Shown in pieces: positions 1 through 48,277 of a stretch of 54,920 nt of DNA. The stretch lies in contig CAJWJK010000011.1 of NCBI GenBank assembly GCA_913041535.1, positions 1 to 54,920 on the forward strand. The letters are read 5' to 3'. Position 1 is the first letter of the stretch. Each line of letters starts with the position of its first letter. The notes beneath the pieces were generated by a model, which saw nothing but the letters and a program-made list of their open reading frames with translations, ran no database searches and had not been told where the DNA came from. Made by a program: the position numbers and the translations under genes. This DNA is from an uncultured Alphaproteobacteria bacterium. Lineage in GTDB: Bacteria; Pseudomonadota; Alphaproteobacteria; VGEJ01.

Positions 1-53
<53 letters not shown>

Positions 54-40411: not shown

Positions 40412-41341
40412 TTAGGCTTTAATGCCGACGAGAGCACGCGCAAAGTCACCAGCGTCAAGCAAAATTAAGTCATCTATCTCCTCACCGATTCCTATAGCAT
40501 GTACGGGAAGCCCATAACGATTAGCAATAGATACCAACACCCCACCTCTAGCTGTGCCATCAAGTTTGGTCATTACTAGTCCCGTAATACCACAGGCCTT
40601 ACTAAACACCTCTACCTGTTTTACCGCGTTCTGACCCGTAGTTGCATCCAAAACAAGCAAGATGGAGTGCGGGGCGTTAACATCGTTCTTCGAAACTACA
40701 CGAACCATTTTCTCTAGCTGAGCCATTAGGTCCGATTTGTTGTGCAGTCTCCCTGCAGTATCAATTATTAACAGGTCAAATGTTTCCCTCAAAGCCCTCT
40801 GATGTGCATCAAATACAAGCGCAGCAGCATCAGCTTTCTCGTTACTTGACACCACGACCGCACCGGCTCGCTCCCCCCAAAGCGTTAGCTGTTCAATTGC
40901 AGCAGCACGGAACGTATCACCCGCTGCCACCATAACTTTGCAACCTTGACGTTTATAAAGATTCGCAAGCTTGCCAATAGTTGTTGTTTTTCCGGTCCCG
41001 TTTACTCCGACGACAAGCACAACATATGGCTTGCTTGACGGATCTACCACCAATGGACATGCAACTGGTTCAAGCACCTTGATTATTTCTTCTACGAGCA
41101 CAGATCGAGCCTCATCTGGGCCGACCGTTGAATCATATCGCGAGGAGGCGATATTAGATGTGATATCTGCAGCGGTCTGCACACCAAAATCAGCACTAAT
41201 CAATAATTCTTCCAACTCTTCAATGGTTGTAGCATCAAGCTTCCGCTGCACAAAAAGCCGAGAAAGCCCTTCTCCAATGCGGGTCGACGAGAGGGATAAG
41301 CTAGACCTCAACCGTGAGAGCAATGGTGCGCCCGACTTCAT
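40412..41341 (-). CDS. ftsY: Signal recognition particle receptor FtsY
   Basis: GTPase at the membrane that docks SRP-ribosome complexes. The N-domain helices (about 20-90) precede the G-domain with GVNGTGKTTTIGKLA (P-loop), AGDTFRAAAIEQL, DTAGR and TKLDGTARGG. The ATG at 41341 overlaps the mtaB stop as ATGA, which fixes the start better than the in-frame GTG at 41350. The acidic A-domain of E. coli FtsY is absent, as in many alphaproteobacteria. It ends the nlpC-dapF-mtaB-ftsY run. Confidence 0.96.
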   Translation of the reverse strand: MKSGAPLLSRLRSSLSLSSTRIGEGLSRLFVQRKLDATTIEELEELLISADFGVQTAADITSNIASSRYDSTVGPDEARSVLVEEIIKVLEPVACPLVVDPSSKPYVVLVVGVNGTGKTTTIGKLANLYKRQGCKVMVAAGDTFRAAAIEQLTLWGERAGAVVVSSNEKADAAALVFDAHQRALRETFDLLIIDTAGRLHNKSDLMAQLEKMVRVVSKNDVNAPHSILLVLDATTGQNAVKQVEVFSKACGITGLVMTKLDGTARGGVLVSIANRYGLPVHAIGIGEEIDDLILLDAGDFARALVGIKA

Positions 41342-43577: not shown

Positions 43578-44441
43578 CTAGTCATCAGGAAATCTACGTA
43601 CAGAGCAAATCTGAAGACCGAGCAACGACTTATATCTCTCAACCGTCTCCACAAGAGGCGTAATTGCCACCCCCATATTTTTAGTGTTGGCATGGATGAG
43701 ATAGTCTTGGTCAAGCACTAACGCGCAATGACCCTTCCAAAACAATACGTCTCCACGTTCTAGTATGCTAGAATCATGCCCTGGTACTAACATACCAGAT
43801 TGCTCCAACATATCGGTATCTCTAGGCACAAATCGACCGGATCGTTGCAGAGCTGTCTGCACCAGCCCTGAACAATCAATTCCTAGCGCTGTCCGCCCGC
43901 CCCAAAGGTATGGAGCATTCAAAAATTTCTCCGCTGTTAATACATAATCCGACTCAATACTTTCCAAGGAAGCAAGATGGCATATACTTATGTACTTGCC
44001 TTCGAGCACCTGCGCATAGTCACCATCAAACCCTTGGACAGAAAGGCGTGCTCCCATAGGAAAAACATCAAATCGAGGTGCTTTTAAATCTGGCTCCTCA
44101 AAAAGGATCGCCAGAGGGGTTTTAACGATATGTGTTGGAACAGATGGTTTTCCGAGATTCGATAAACCCACATAACCGACATACCCATCACCTCCAGCTT
44201 GTCCCCACGCCCAACCATCTTTCTCTTCATACACAATGAAGCTCTCCCCATACAACAGTTCACTAACGCGCTCCGAACTTGGTGATGGTTGACGTCTTAG
44301 GGGTGAAATAGCTGATACCAACCGCTTCTCTTCCCCGACAACAAATCGGTTAGATGCTACACGTCCCCGTAATGAGGATGAGGCTAGATCCCCACGATAC
44401 GGATGAATTCTAGGGTCAAGGTGTTCTTGCATAAGACTCAT
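43578..44441 (-). CDS. NlpC/P60 (C40) peptidase with N-terminal SH3-like domains
   Basis: A probable cell-wall-peptide hydrolase that cleaves gamma-D-glutamyl-diaminopimelate bonds. Residues about 40-170 form bacterial SH3-like modules (LLYGESFIVYEEKDGWAWGQ, VFPMGARLSVQG). The catalytic domain has Cys in GIDCSGLVQTAL, His in KGHCALVLD and a third polar residue in LIHANT. No signal peptide is visible, so it may act on recycled peptides in the cytoplasm, as dipeptidyl-peptidase VI-like enzymes do. It lies upstream of dapF on the same strand. Confidence 0.88.
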   Translation of the reverse strand: MSLMQEHLDPRIHPYRGDLASSSLRGRVASNRFVVGEEKRLVSAISPLRRQPSPSSERVSELLYGESFIVYEEKDGWAWGQAGGDGYVGYVGLSNLGKPSVPTHIVKTPLAILFEEPDLKAPRFDVFPMGARLSVQGFDGDYAQVLEGKYISICHLASLESIESDYVLTAEKFLNAPYLWGGRTALGIDCSGLVQTALQRSGRFVPRDTDMLEQSGMLVPGHDSSILERGDVLFWKGHCALVLDQDYLIHANTKNMGVAITPLVETVERYKSLLGLQICSVRRFPDD

Positions 44442-44564
44442 AAGTGTAAATCGCCTTCAATCCCGCGACCAGTCTTCCTGACGGATAGTTTATATCGCGT
44501 TCTGTTTAGGCTTGATTGATATGGCACTCAAAGCGTACTCTCTGCGGCAAGTTCCAAAGTTGTA

Positions 44565-44626
44565 TTCAAGCGCCTTGGCTACGCCAGCCCGCGAGGTTTC
44601 GCGCGGTGGCGATTTAGGTGCTTGAA
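44565..44626 (+). ncRNA. Structured leader upstream of ffh (candidate ffh motif RNA)
   Basis: TTCAAGCGCC (44565-44574) pairs with GGTGCTTGAA (44617-44626) over ten pairs with one G-U. It encloses a second, nearly perfect hairpin from 44583 to 44610 (GCCA with TGGC, CC with GG, CGCGA with TCGCG, tetraloop GGTT, two single-base bulges). The ribosome site AAGGAG (44629-44634) and the ffh start follow directly. I recall an Rfam element upstream of ffh found in marine alphaproteobacteria; whether this matches it needs a covariance search. It lacks the conserved 4.5S RNA loop. Confidence 0.6.
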
Positions 44627-44646
44627 CTAAGGAGTGACGGGTTAAC

Positions 44647-46029
44647 ATGTTTGATGTGCTTAGCGATCGTTTAGGAGCAGTCTTAGGTACGCTTAAAGGG
44701 CATGCTCTATTGTCGGAAGGCGATATTGTAAAGGCACTCCGGGAAGTGCGCATAGCACTACTCGAAGCCGATGTTGCTCTACCCGTCGTAAAAGAATTTG
44801 TGGATAACGTACACCACAAAGCTAGTGGCTCTGATGTGCTAAAGAACGTTAGCCCCAGCCAAATGGTGATCAAGATCGTACACGACGAGCTTGTCACAAT
44901 TCTTGGTGAAGAGAGCGAAAGTCTCGATATAGCAACAGTGCCGCCTGCCTGTATTCTTATGGTGGGCCTTCAGGGATCAGGAAAAACTACGACTGCAGCT
45001 AAGATTGCATATCGGCTAAAGAATCGAGATAAAAAGAAGGTTCTATTGGCATCTCTGGACACTCAGCGGCCAGCAGCCCAGGAACAGCTGGCGATTCTTG
45101 GAAAACAAGCTGATGTACCAACACTTCCAATAGTTGCAAACCAAATCCCTATTGACATCGCAAGGCGTGCAATCAATGCCGGGAAACTTCAAGGCTTTGA
45201 TGTAGTAATACTCGATACAGCAGGCCGCATACATGCAGATGCTGGCTTAATGGCAGATGCAGCAGCTTTGCGAGAAGCGGTGAAGCCTGTTGAGGTGTTG
45301 TTGGTGGCAGACGCGTTAACCGGCCAAGACGCGGTAAATCTAGCCAGTCAGTTCAAAGAGAAATTAGACATCACTGGTGTTGTGCTAACCCGTATTGACG
45401 GTGATGCCCGAGGTGGCGCGGCATTAAGTATTCGAGCTGCCGCCGGATGTCCCATTAAGTTACTTGGTAATGGTGAGAAGCTGGACGATTTGGATGGATT
45501 TTATCCTGACCGAATCGCCTCACGCATTCTAGGCATGGGGGACGTTGTTAGTTTAGTTGAAAAAGCGCAAGAAACGATTGAAGAGCAAGATGCCGCTGTC
45601 CTTGAGAAAAGATTAATGGAGGGACGTTTCGACTTATCTGACTTGGCCTCACAGCTCCAACAGGTGCGTAAAATGGGCGGAATGAGTGGAATATTGGGCC
45701 TTTTGCCAGGTGTTGGAAAGGTCAAAACCCAAATGACAAATGCGGGACTGGACGAGCGAGCGCTTGTGCGCCAGGAGGCGATTATTGGATCAATGACCAA
45801 TGCGGAACGCCAAAATGCTAGACTCATCAATGGCGCACGCAAACGCCGCATTGCCTCCGGATCAGGAACCTCAGTCCAGGAAGTCAACCGATTGCTAAAA
45901 CAATACAAGCAGATGTCTACTATGGTTAAGAAGGTTGGAAGAATGGGTAAAAAGGGCATACTCCGTCAGGGAATGCCTAATTTTTCTGGCATCCCAGGCC
46001 TTCAGGGTAATCGTCATCAAATACGCTAG
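44647..46029 (+). CDS. ffh: Signal recognition particle protein Ffh (SRP54)
   Basis: Binds signal peptides and 4.5S RNA. The NG domain has [35 protein letters not shown] and [13 protein letters not shown]. The methionine-rich M-domain spans about 330-450, with the RNA-binding region [22 protein letters not shown]. The length of 460 residues is typical. A strong two-part hairpin precedes the AAGGAG site. It heads the ffh-rpsP-rimM-trmD-rplS run, and its receptor FtsY is encoded 3 kb away on the other strand. Confidence 0.97.
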
Positions 46030-46058: not shown

Positions 46059-46577
46059 ATGTCTTTAAAAATCCGTTTGACGAGGAGTGGCGCAAAAAAG
46101 CGACCTTTCTATCGCATCGTACTCGCCGATTCACGTAGCCCTCGTGATGGTAAATTTATCGAACGACTAGGCACCTACAACCCTTTATTACGGCCTGATG
46201 ACCCAAGTCGGGTTACCTTAAAGGAAGAGCGTATCCGTCACTGGCTACATCATGGCGCGCGCCCGACCGAACGAGTAGCGCGTTTTTTAGGTGCTGCTAA
46301 TCTGATTGAGACACCAAAGCAACGCAACAACCCACTTAAGGCTCAGCCAAAAGCTAAAGCCCAAGAACGTGCGAAAGAAGCGCAAAGTGCAGCAGCGGAA
46401 ACCAATGCTGCTATAACAGACAATGAAACCAGCAATATCGCCGAGACGTCGTCGTCAGACGCTGCCGAGGCATCTCAGGAGACAGAAGAAACCAGCGCGG
46501 ACCCCGGAAACGATTCTGAGGACGCTGCCGAGGCCACTACATCCACAGACACCAGCGAGACTAAAGGTAACTCTTGA
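46059..46577 (+). CDS. rpsP: 30S ribosomal protein S16 (bS16) with long acidic tail
   Basis: Small-subunit assembly protein. The S16 core is residues 1-85: [37 protein letters not shown] and [21 protein letters not shown]. Residues about 90-172 are a low-complexity tail rich in Ala, Glu, Ser and Thr with few hydrophobic residues. Alphaproteobacterial S16 proteins often carry such extensions, but this one doubles the protein. A GAGGAG site precedes the ATG. Confidence 0.96.
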
Positions 46578-46599: not shown

Positions 46600-47160
46600 A
46601 TGACAGACACATATACATCCATGTCAGATACGTTGGAGCAGCCTGACGTTCACTCGGTGTGTCTTGGAGCTGTGGTTGGCGCTCACGGACTTTCTGGCGA
46701 GGTAAGAATAAAAAGCTTTACACAACACCCTGAAAATATTGCCGCTTATGGTCCGCTTTTTGATGAAGATACTGAACGTTCATTTGAGTTAGTTAATGTG
46801 CGACAACGCGGCAATATTGTCATCGCGCGTGTTGCTGGTATCAATGATAGGAACTCAGCCCAAAACATTGTAGGCGCCCGTTTGTTTGTGAAGCGGAACG
46901 CATTAGAAACCCTTCCAAACAATGAGTTCTACCACATCGACCTGGTTGGATTGCGCGCCGAAAGAGAATGCGGGCGCCCCTTTGGCCGAGTAAATGCTGT
47001 CCGCAACTTTGGAACTGGTGACATCCTTGAAATCACGCGTGAATCAAATGAAACCGTAATGGTGCCCTTTACCTCAGACATTGTACCTAAAGTCGACATA
47101 CAAGGCGGATGCTTAGTTGTGGCATTACCGTTTGATGCGATTGAGAAAGATACGGGATAA
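46600..47160 (+). CDS. rimM: Ribosome maturation factor RimM
   Basis: Binds S19 and helps 16S rRNA processing. The N-domain shows VCLGAVVGAHGLSGEVRIKSFT and the PRC-barrel domain has NEFYHIDLVGL, then GTGDILEI and the terminal MVPFTSDIVPKVD block. Translation could begin at either ATG 46600 or ATG 46621; neither has a strong ribosome site. It lies 22 bases after rpsP and 5 bases before trmD. Confidence 0.95.
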   Translation: MTDTYTSMSDTLEQPDVHSVCLGAVVGAHGLSGEVRIKSFTQHPENIAAYGPLFDEDTERSFELVNVRQRGNIVIARVAGINDRNSAQNIVGARLFVKRNALETLPNNEFYHIDLVGLRAERECGRPFGRVNAVRNFGTGDILEITRESNETVMVPFTSDIVPKVDIQGGCLVVALPFDAIEKDTG

Positions 47161-47165
47161 GCATA

Positions 47166-47900
47166 ATGTCTTCCCAAGAAATGTTCTCTGCACGAGTTTT
47201 GAGTTTATACCCCTCCATGTTTCCCGGGCCGCTTAACTACTCTTTAGCAGGACGAGCCCTAAAAGATAAACGATGGGACCTTTCTGTGCTTAACATTCGG
47301 GAGTTTGCATCAGATCCTCATAAGACCGTTGACGGACGACCCTTTGGTGGTGGTCCGGGTATGGTGTTAAGAGCAGATGTATTGGATAGAGCTCTTAGTG
47401 CTATCATCCCAAAGGAGCAACAAAACGAGCCTGTTATCGTACTAAGTCCTCGCGGAAATCCCCTAGACCAAAAGCGCGTTAATGAGCTAGCCCTCGGAGC
47501 TGGCCTTACACTCATTTGCGGTCGCTTCGAAGGAATTGACCATCGTATAATTGATGCCTACGGTGCAGAAGAGATAAGTCTCGGTGATTTTGTGCTCTCC
47601 GGCGGTGAAATCGCTGCGATTGCCCTTCTTGACGCTGTAGTCCGGCTCTTGCCAAATGTAATCGGAGCGGCTGAAAGCTTAACAAATGAAAGCTTCACAG
47701 ATAACTTACTGGAATACCCACAGTTTACTCGCCCTCAAATTTGGGATGGGTATACAGTGCCAAATATCCTCCTATCAGGAGACCATGCGGGAATTGCCTC
47801 ATGGCGACAGAATGAATCGGAGCAGTTAACCCGCGAACGGCGCCCAGATCTTTGGGCGCGCCATAACAGAGAATTGACTAGTGCGAGGGTAAAAAAATGA
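47166..47900 (+). CDS. trmD: tRNA (guanine-N1)-methyltransferase
   Basis: Methylates G37 of tRNAs with SAM through a deep trefoil knot. Seen are [54 protein letters not shown] and the C-terminal HNRELT. The length of 244 residues is typical. Its end overlaps the rplS start (ATGA) by four bases. Confidence 0.96.
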
Positions 47901-48277
47901 ACCTATTACAAGAAATAGAACTTGAGGAAGTAAAAAAACTGGGCGATGAGAGATCAGTTCCAGAGTTTGCTCCCGGCGATACTCTTCGCGTGATGGTCAA
48001 AGTCGTAGAAGGGTCTCGAGAACGTTTGCAAGCCTTTGAAGGAGTTTGTATCGCACGAAAAAACCGAGGTACAGGCTCATCTTTCACTGTAAGAAAACTT
48101 TCATACGGTGAAGGAGTTGAGCGAGTTTTTCCACTTCACTCACCACAAATTGCCCGTATTGAAGTCATACGACGAGGGGCCGTTCGCAGGTCAAAACTAT
48201 ACTACCTTCGAGGCCGCACAGGAAAGCGCGCACGAATTTCAGAAAAAGTTGACCGCACCTCATCCCGCAATAAATAG
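47897..48277 (+). CDS. rplS: 50S ribosomal protein L19 (bL19)
   Basis: Located at the 30S-50S interface. The family sequence includes [56 protein letters not shown] and [15 protein letters not shown]. The length is 126 residues with the usual short alphaproteobacterial extension. The ATG overlaps the trmD stop, which indicates coupling. Confidence 0.97.

Follow-up and report, generated by a model that had tools for sequence, protein, structure and literature searches.

The leader and its neighbors

The window, by which we mean the whole stretch of DNA that was analyzed (54,920 bases, from a genome of 2.09 Mb whose order has just two genomes in the collection), contains a presumed operon that opens with ffh and continues with rpsP (S16), rimM, trmD and rplS (Table 1). 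Directly before ffh, the sequence confirms a hairpin at 44565-44626. An earlier note had described it as a two-part hairpin with a ten-pair outer stem, ending three bases before the AAGGAG ribosome site of ffh. Two-part it is, and close to AAGGAG it lies, but the outer stem has 11 pairs (10 Watson-Crick and one G-U), and the gap is two bases (44627-44628). What is this hairpin, and which of the genes behind it does it serve?

Table 1. Features of the ffh leader and its surroundings in the window
Feature	Position	Strand	Basis or remark
Partial tRNA match	1-53	-	31.8 bits, at the edge of the window
Second PF00448 match, ftsY-like by eye	40427-41026	-	genome search
NlpC/P60-like gene	43578-44441	-	by eye; flanked by dapF and ffh, transcribed away from ffh
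Candidate promoter TTGATT-18-TACTCT	44512-44541	+	pattern match
Outer stem, 5' arm	44565-44575	+	sequence, fold
Inner hairpin (ffh motif core)	44582-44611	+	R1 match, covariation in relatives
Tail after core	44612-44627	+	R1 alignment; counterpart of the relatives' T-rich tail, without a terminator-type T run
Outer stem, 3' arm	44616-44626	+	sequence, fold
AAGGAG Shine-Dalgarno of ffh	44629-44634	+	sequence; outside the stem
ffh	44647-46029	+	ORF, ATG at 44647; PF00448 match 1.1e-68, one of two in the genome
rpsP (S16), next presumed operon gene	46059-46577	+	ORF
rimM	46600-47160	+	ORF; named by eye from sequence and gene order
trmD	47166-47900	+	ORF; named by eye from sequence and gene order
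rplS	47897-48277	+	ORF; named by eye from sequence and gene order

Because the gene upstream of the leader is divergent from ffh, the hairpin in the window ends no other transcript, and a terminator-like hairpin at this place can act on the transcript of the operon alone. No terminator of the usual kind, a GC-rich stem followed by a run of T, was found in the window by our terminator rule in two scans, and we claim none there. The candidate promoter in Table 1 is a pattern match, and a stricter sigma-70 scan returned no promoter at 44512-44541.

Folded in isolation, positions 44560-44635 reach -35.3 kcal/mol with a z score of -3.56, equaled by 1 of 200 shuffles, a score that is flattering because the stretch was chosen for its paired look; the fold of the full stretch from 44442 to 44700 is ordinary (z of -0.92, 36 of 200 shuffles equal). 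For the reality of the hairpin, we take the comparison with relatives to be stronger evidence than these fold statistics. Read in the consensus register, the inner hairpin holds a conserved C.C mismatch (C44589/C44604) and, in addition, a G.G mismatch (G44587/G44606) that recurs in G001, the sole relative of the window's genome within its order; in the lowest-energy fold, the register is moved by one base at these mismatches.

The core, the outer stem and the ffh motif family

Leaders were drawn from relatives' genomes, some of them named genomes and others fetched stretches, and the core in each was located by script. In a MAFFT alignment of 57 such leaders that excluded the window, the core reads CGYCNGUC-N-GCGA-loop-UCGC-N-CACNGGCG, with the C.C mismatch; its 12 pairs are kept in 97.1% of cells, and double changes occur at 10 of them, in 76 cells vs. 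14.7 when shuffled, with 0 of 500 shuffles as high. This alignment also supplied a model, which we call R1. A second set of 64, made up of 60 newly fetched places, L084, L085, L086 and the window, in an alignment fitted to R1, gives 96.0% pairing and 119 double changes vs. 31.5 shuffled, and G-U pairs appear at several core positions in both alignments. The compensatory changes in relatives that the earlier note had proposed as a check are, for the inner stem, strong in both sets; for the outer stem, relatives offer neither such changes nor conservation. The same alignments speak to the idea that the core, a near-palindrome, is an inverted repeat in the DNA to which a transcription factor binds. 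At the conserved C.C mismatch the dyad is broken, G-U pairs occupy several positions and the site lies downstream of the promoter-like sequence, all of which makes this idea very hard to credit.

The outer stem deserves a word of its own. In the window, its arm pairs with the tail better than in 60 of 60 shuffles, and pairing of this quality is found only in scattered leaders (again 0 of 60 shuffles as good for L119, L162 and L079, and 3 of 60 for L005). Pairing in the window's register across relatives, at 45.3% of cells in alignment A2 and 47.5% in A1, is not above that of shuffled or slid versions. A permutation test across genomes was apparently significant (0 to 6 of 5000) with base composition uncontrolled; once composition is controlled for, nothing of the effect remains (58 of 126 leaders beat their shuffles, and 59-62 of 126 in a repeat test). 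We rejected the outer stem as a conserved part and regard it, on these comparisons, as a local oddity of the window.

To what family does the core belong? The earlier note had suggested an Rfam covariance search, and mentioned a structured ffh leader reported in marine alphaproteobacteria. The search gave no RF01793 match, either in the window or in its own genome, at the family's cut-off of 35 bits; its sole result for the leader was a snoRNA match at E 3.6, which is at chance level and led us to reject any other Rfam family. Such a leader, the ffh motif, was indeed published in 2009 (Meyer et al., PMC2704228), and the window holds a diverged member of it. Lying below the cut-off, the hairpin is not filed as an RF01793 member by Rfam's rule, and its homology rests on other evidence. 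R1, whose E-values are rough because the calibration was short, matches 44565-44627 with 38.5 bits (E 3.7e-9), and this match is the only one at E up to 10 in all 54,920 bases and the only one in the window's own genome. The leaders that trained R1 include matches to RF01793 itself (for example, L020, L036 and L054), so that the homology runs through intermediates. Like the ffh motif in Rfam, the window has its element directly before ffh, and the element is a single hairpin with conserved cytosines in an internal mismatch; unlike the ffh motif, it stays below the Rfam cut-off, has an outer stem and a G.G mismatch and lacks the T tail. Taken together, these comparisons place the inner part of the hairpin in the ffh motif family as a diverged member. 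A dispersed repeat was considered and rejected (the 205-nt leader matches itself alone in the genome, where R1 also gives one place). A relaxed core pattern had zero matches in the genome and, given that it missed the window's own copy too, carries little weight.

The family is wider than its published description. According to the relevant passages of Meyer et al., the ffh motif occurs in SAR11, Rhodobacterales, Sphingomonadales and Rhizobiales, Rhodospirillales and Caulobacterales are said to lack it and "nearly all" examples precede ffh; the motif was published without a function, with regulation of ffh raised as a possible role. The window's relatives, unlike that reported range, include Rhodospirillales. 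Among 27 named loci, 24 have the core before ffh, and these include Niveispirillum and Novispirillum, both Rhodospirillales, and Belnapia, now placed in Acetobacterales. Named Rhodospirillales carry the motif, contrary to the report of 2009. (The three loci without the core are L041, with 113 nt upstream only, and two that are titled gammaproteobacteria or Pseudomonadales.) With the Rfam model, 2 of 12 named loci pass (L054, Hyphomicrobium, and L036, a Rhodospirillales MAG), as do 16 of 59 genomes, each at a leader that we studied, L084 and L085 among them, the window's genome being absent. Among genomes of the class sought at 90% completeness or more, R1 matched at least 166 of 241 at E up to 0.01, a lower bound because the filters were strict, and all but four of the 166 had a single match. 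Set against the 16 of 59 at the Rfam cut-off, in a smaller set, this suggests that much of the family, the lineage of the window included, escapes the Rfam entry.

Genomes with ffh and rpsP apart, and genomes without ffh

The rpsP gene was matched in 55 of 59 genomes, that of the window among them, and both it and ffh could be placed in 51, which, except for G001, stand one per family. In 47 of the 51, ffh is followed by rpsP on the same strand, and the motif is present in 38 of these, weak in 2, absent in 6 and unjudged in 1; the weak cases, G007 and G031, were called by eye, and R1 has no match to them at E up to 1. In the four genomes with ffh and rpsP apart, the motif was found before neither gene, with the upstream stretches of rpsP in G025 and G056 ending at a contig edge after 299 and 119 nt. 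The chance of such a split between linked and apart genomes is 0.0009 if weak cases count as present and 0.002 if they count as absent. The proposal that the motif strictly follows rpsP was rejected, as it was not found before rpsP in the four genomes with ffh apart.

Of 60 further places fetched with R1, 56 lie before ffh, 1 at a contig end and 3 before rpsP (G158, G238 and G249), to which G050 adds a fourth case of the motif before rpsP with no ffh between them. The element before rpsP in all four, and its linkage to the ffh-rpsP pair elsewhere, amount to an association in cis with that gene. The ffh of G249, identified by eye, starts at the edge of another contig, its own upstream region unseen; between motif and rpsP in that genome (L111, G249:C62) are about 280 nt without a listed gene, where ffh would be.

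The other three (G050, G158 and G238, with leaders L085, L169 and L170) belong to one alphaproteobacterial family and have genomes of 1.4 Mb that are 95-97% complete. No PF00448 protein was found in them at E up to 0.001, and 14 of 14 control genomes were positive; because PF00448 covers both Ffh and FtsY, these genomes have neither. A search of G050 for SRP RNA was also without a match. A natural loss of the SRP pathway in this family seems likely from these searches. The motif adjoins dapF and mtaB there, a thioredoxin-like gene sits in the place that ftsY has in the window (names by eye) and the gene next in line, in the slot of the window's ffh, is rpsP. In G050, the leader and dapF are immediate neighbors. 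Past its S16 domain of about 84 residues, rpsP has a long low-complexity C-terminal tail both in the window, where it is acidic, and in G050 (L085, 2722-3237), where it is made of alanine/proline repeats. The three cores differ from one another by paired changes, such as a second pair that is G-C in G050 and A-U, or the reverse, in G238, from which it follows that, provided the loss goes back to the family's ancestor, the structure was maintained in the absence of ffh. Two further genomes of the class, G055 and G018 (each a single contig, 93% and 88% complete), gave a match neither to PF00448, at that cut-off, nor to SRP RNA, and have no motif before rpsP. The element survives in a few genomes without ffh, which suggests that it may serve the ribosomal-protein genes downstream and not ffh. 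Our literature search, which covered mostly titles and the openings of abstracts, turned up no paper that places the motif before rpsP in a genome lacking Ffh; ffh, rpsP and S16 go unmentioned in PMC2864571.

Genomes in which the element outlives ffh help to separate two earlier readings, that of a regulator of ffh and that of a small RNA. By the first, Ffh or the status of SRP acts on the hairpin and controls the translation of ffh, a form of autoregulation. The earlier note had proposed translational control of Ffh, perhaps linked to SRP levels, Meyer et al. had raised the regulation of ffh as a possibility, and the element's usual site, immediately in front of ffh (as at 56 of the 60 places fetched), is in favor of it. 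The ribosome site, however, lies outside the stem, and the gap between the end of the core and the start of ffh varies from 17 nt to as many as 100 nt over the first set's 65 leaders. Three genomes without a PF00448 protein keep the element before rpsP, and one of these, G050, yielded no SRP RNA. In mimicry searches (best E 0.73), R1 scored at chance level against five SRP-RNA loci, on which ground we rejected mimicry of SRP RNA; its scores against one E. coli rRNA operon were likewise at chance level, which lends no support to mimicry of rRNA. Translational control of Ffh by the hairpin is, therefore, unlikely, and we would give autoregulation little chance.

The second reading is that of Rfam, which types RF01793 as an sRNA: the hairpin would be part of a small RNA that is encoded next to ffh and acts in trans on targets away from it. 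It draws on Sm5 of Sinorhizobium meliloti (S. meliloti), an RNA between dapF and ffh with a predicted size of 108-258 nt and a predicted sigma-70 promoter and Rho-independent terminator. According to PMC2573895, it was detected by microarray, and not by Northern, in the small-RNA fraction of cells stressed by acid, base, oxidants or salt. Sm5 is there called a candidate sRNA, and we equate it with the motif by position alone, not by sequence. The T-rich tails of 71 of 126 leaders fit a free RNA too, as does Mesorhizobium huakuii, for which PMC5596092 lists one RF01793 match in an intergenic region coded Pb, presumably plasmid, and not at ffh, a match that counts against strict linkage. On the other side of the ledger, every one of the 59 fetched places (of 60) that allowed a classification lies before ffh or rpsP, the motif was not found in 4 of 4 genomes with the two genes apart and conservation is highest in a closed hairpin, not in an open seed. 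We consider a small RNA acting in trans unlikely.

A proposed leader of the ribosomal operon

What, then, do the leaders have in common beyond the core? In 112 of 126 leaders, vs. 13 expected from mononucleotide shuffles, a TTGAC is present in the 150 nt before the core (the window has TTGAT). In 100 of 126, vs. 67.5 expected from shuffles, the core is preceded, at a distance of at most 4 nt, by the end of a separate hairpin. Behind the core, in 119 aligned tails, T makes up 62-82% at positions +3 to +5 and 83-88% at +10 and +11; a terminator-type tail is present in 71 of 126 leaders vs. a background of 7.6%, and 55 of 126 fail the terminator rule. Mismatch and tail are both conserved in sequence across relatives. 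Pairing of the tail with upstream sequence, in the one alternative fold tested, was not better than shuffled, and no antiterminator was found.

A plain reading of all this would be a constitutive hairpin that stabilizes or processes the 5' end of the operon and carries no regulatory signal, the two-part hairpin of the window simply protecting the mRNA. The strong fold in the window, its want of a T run and the position of the site soon after the presumed start of the transcript are all in keeping with such a role. Conservation of the mismatch and the tail exceeds the needs of a plain protective stem, however, and 71 of 126 leaders carry T-rich tails that point elsewhere; we think this reading unlikely.

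The explanation that we prefer, with not quite even confidence, is a 5' leader acting in cis, probably as an attenuator, on the ffh-rpsP-rimM-trmD-rplS operon and homologous to the ffh motif. In most relatives, the leader would be transcribed from its own promoter, and its RNA would fold first into the upstream hairpin and next into the conserved core, with the T-rich tail after it in over half of them. Transcription would in part stop at the core, giving a leader RNA some 100 nt long, and in part read through into the operon. Attenuation is favored by the very fact that the hairpin can act on the operon's own transcript alone. As the signal for read-through, S16 or L19 would be likeliest, because the operon makes both and because leaders of this kind have been predicted in other phyla: an S16 leader in Flavobacteria and an L19 leader in Firmicutes and Flavobacteria, thought to be autoregulatory as described in PMC7247131. 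Those, too, are predicted leaders of an rpsP or rplS operon, and we liken them to the alphaproteobacterial element by operon, not by homology or by ligand. The evidence for the Sm5 transcript, thin as it is, points in the same direction as attenuation, Sm5 lying between dapF and ffh with a predicted promoter and a predicted terminator. The lineage of the window has no T tail, and its core sits inside an outer stem of 11 pairs, so that termination is probably weak there; the terminator has probably decayed. Several observations count against the attenuator: the window and 55 of 126 leaders do not pass the terminator rule, six genomes with ffh and rpsP linked are without the motif, G055 and G018 do not have it before rpsP, and the location has its exceptions in M. 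huakuii and in the "nearly all" of Meyer et al.

Can one go a step further and say that the ffh motif is misnamed? It would then be an autoregulatory leader of rpsP-rimM-trmD-rplS, with ffh a passenger in most genomes, and the reason for thinking so is the family without Ffh and FtsY that keeps the element, with compensatory changes, before rpsP. We regard this as possible although doubtful.
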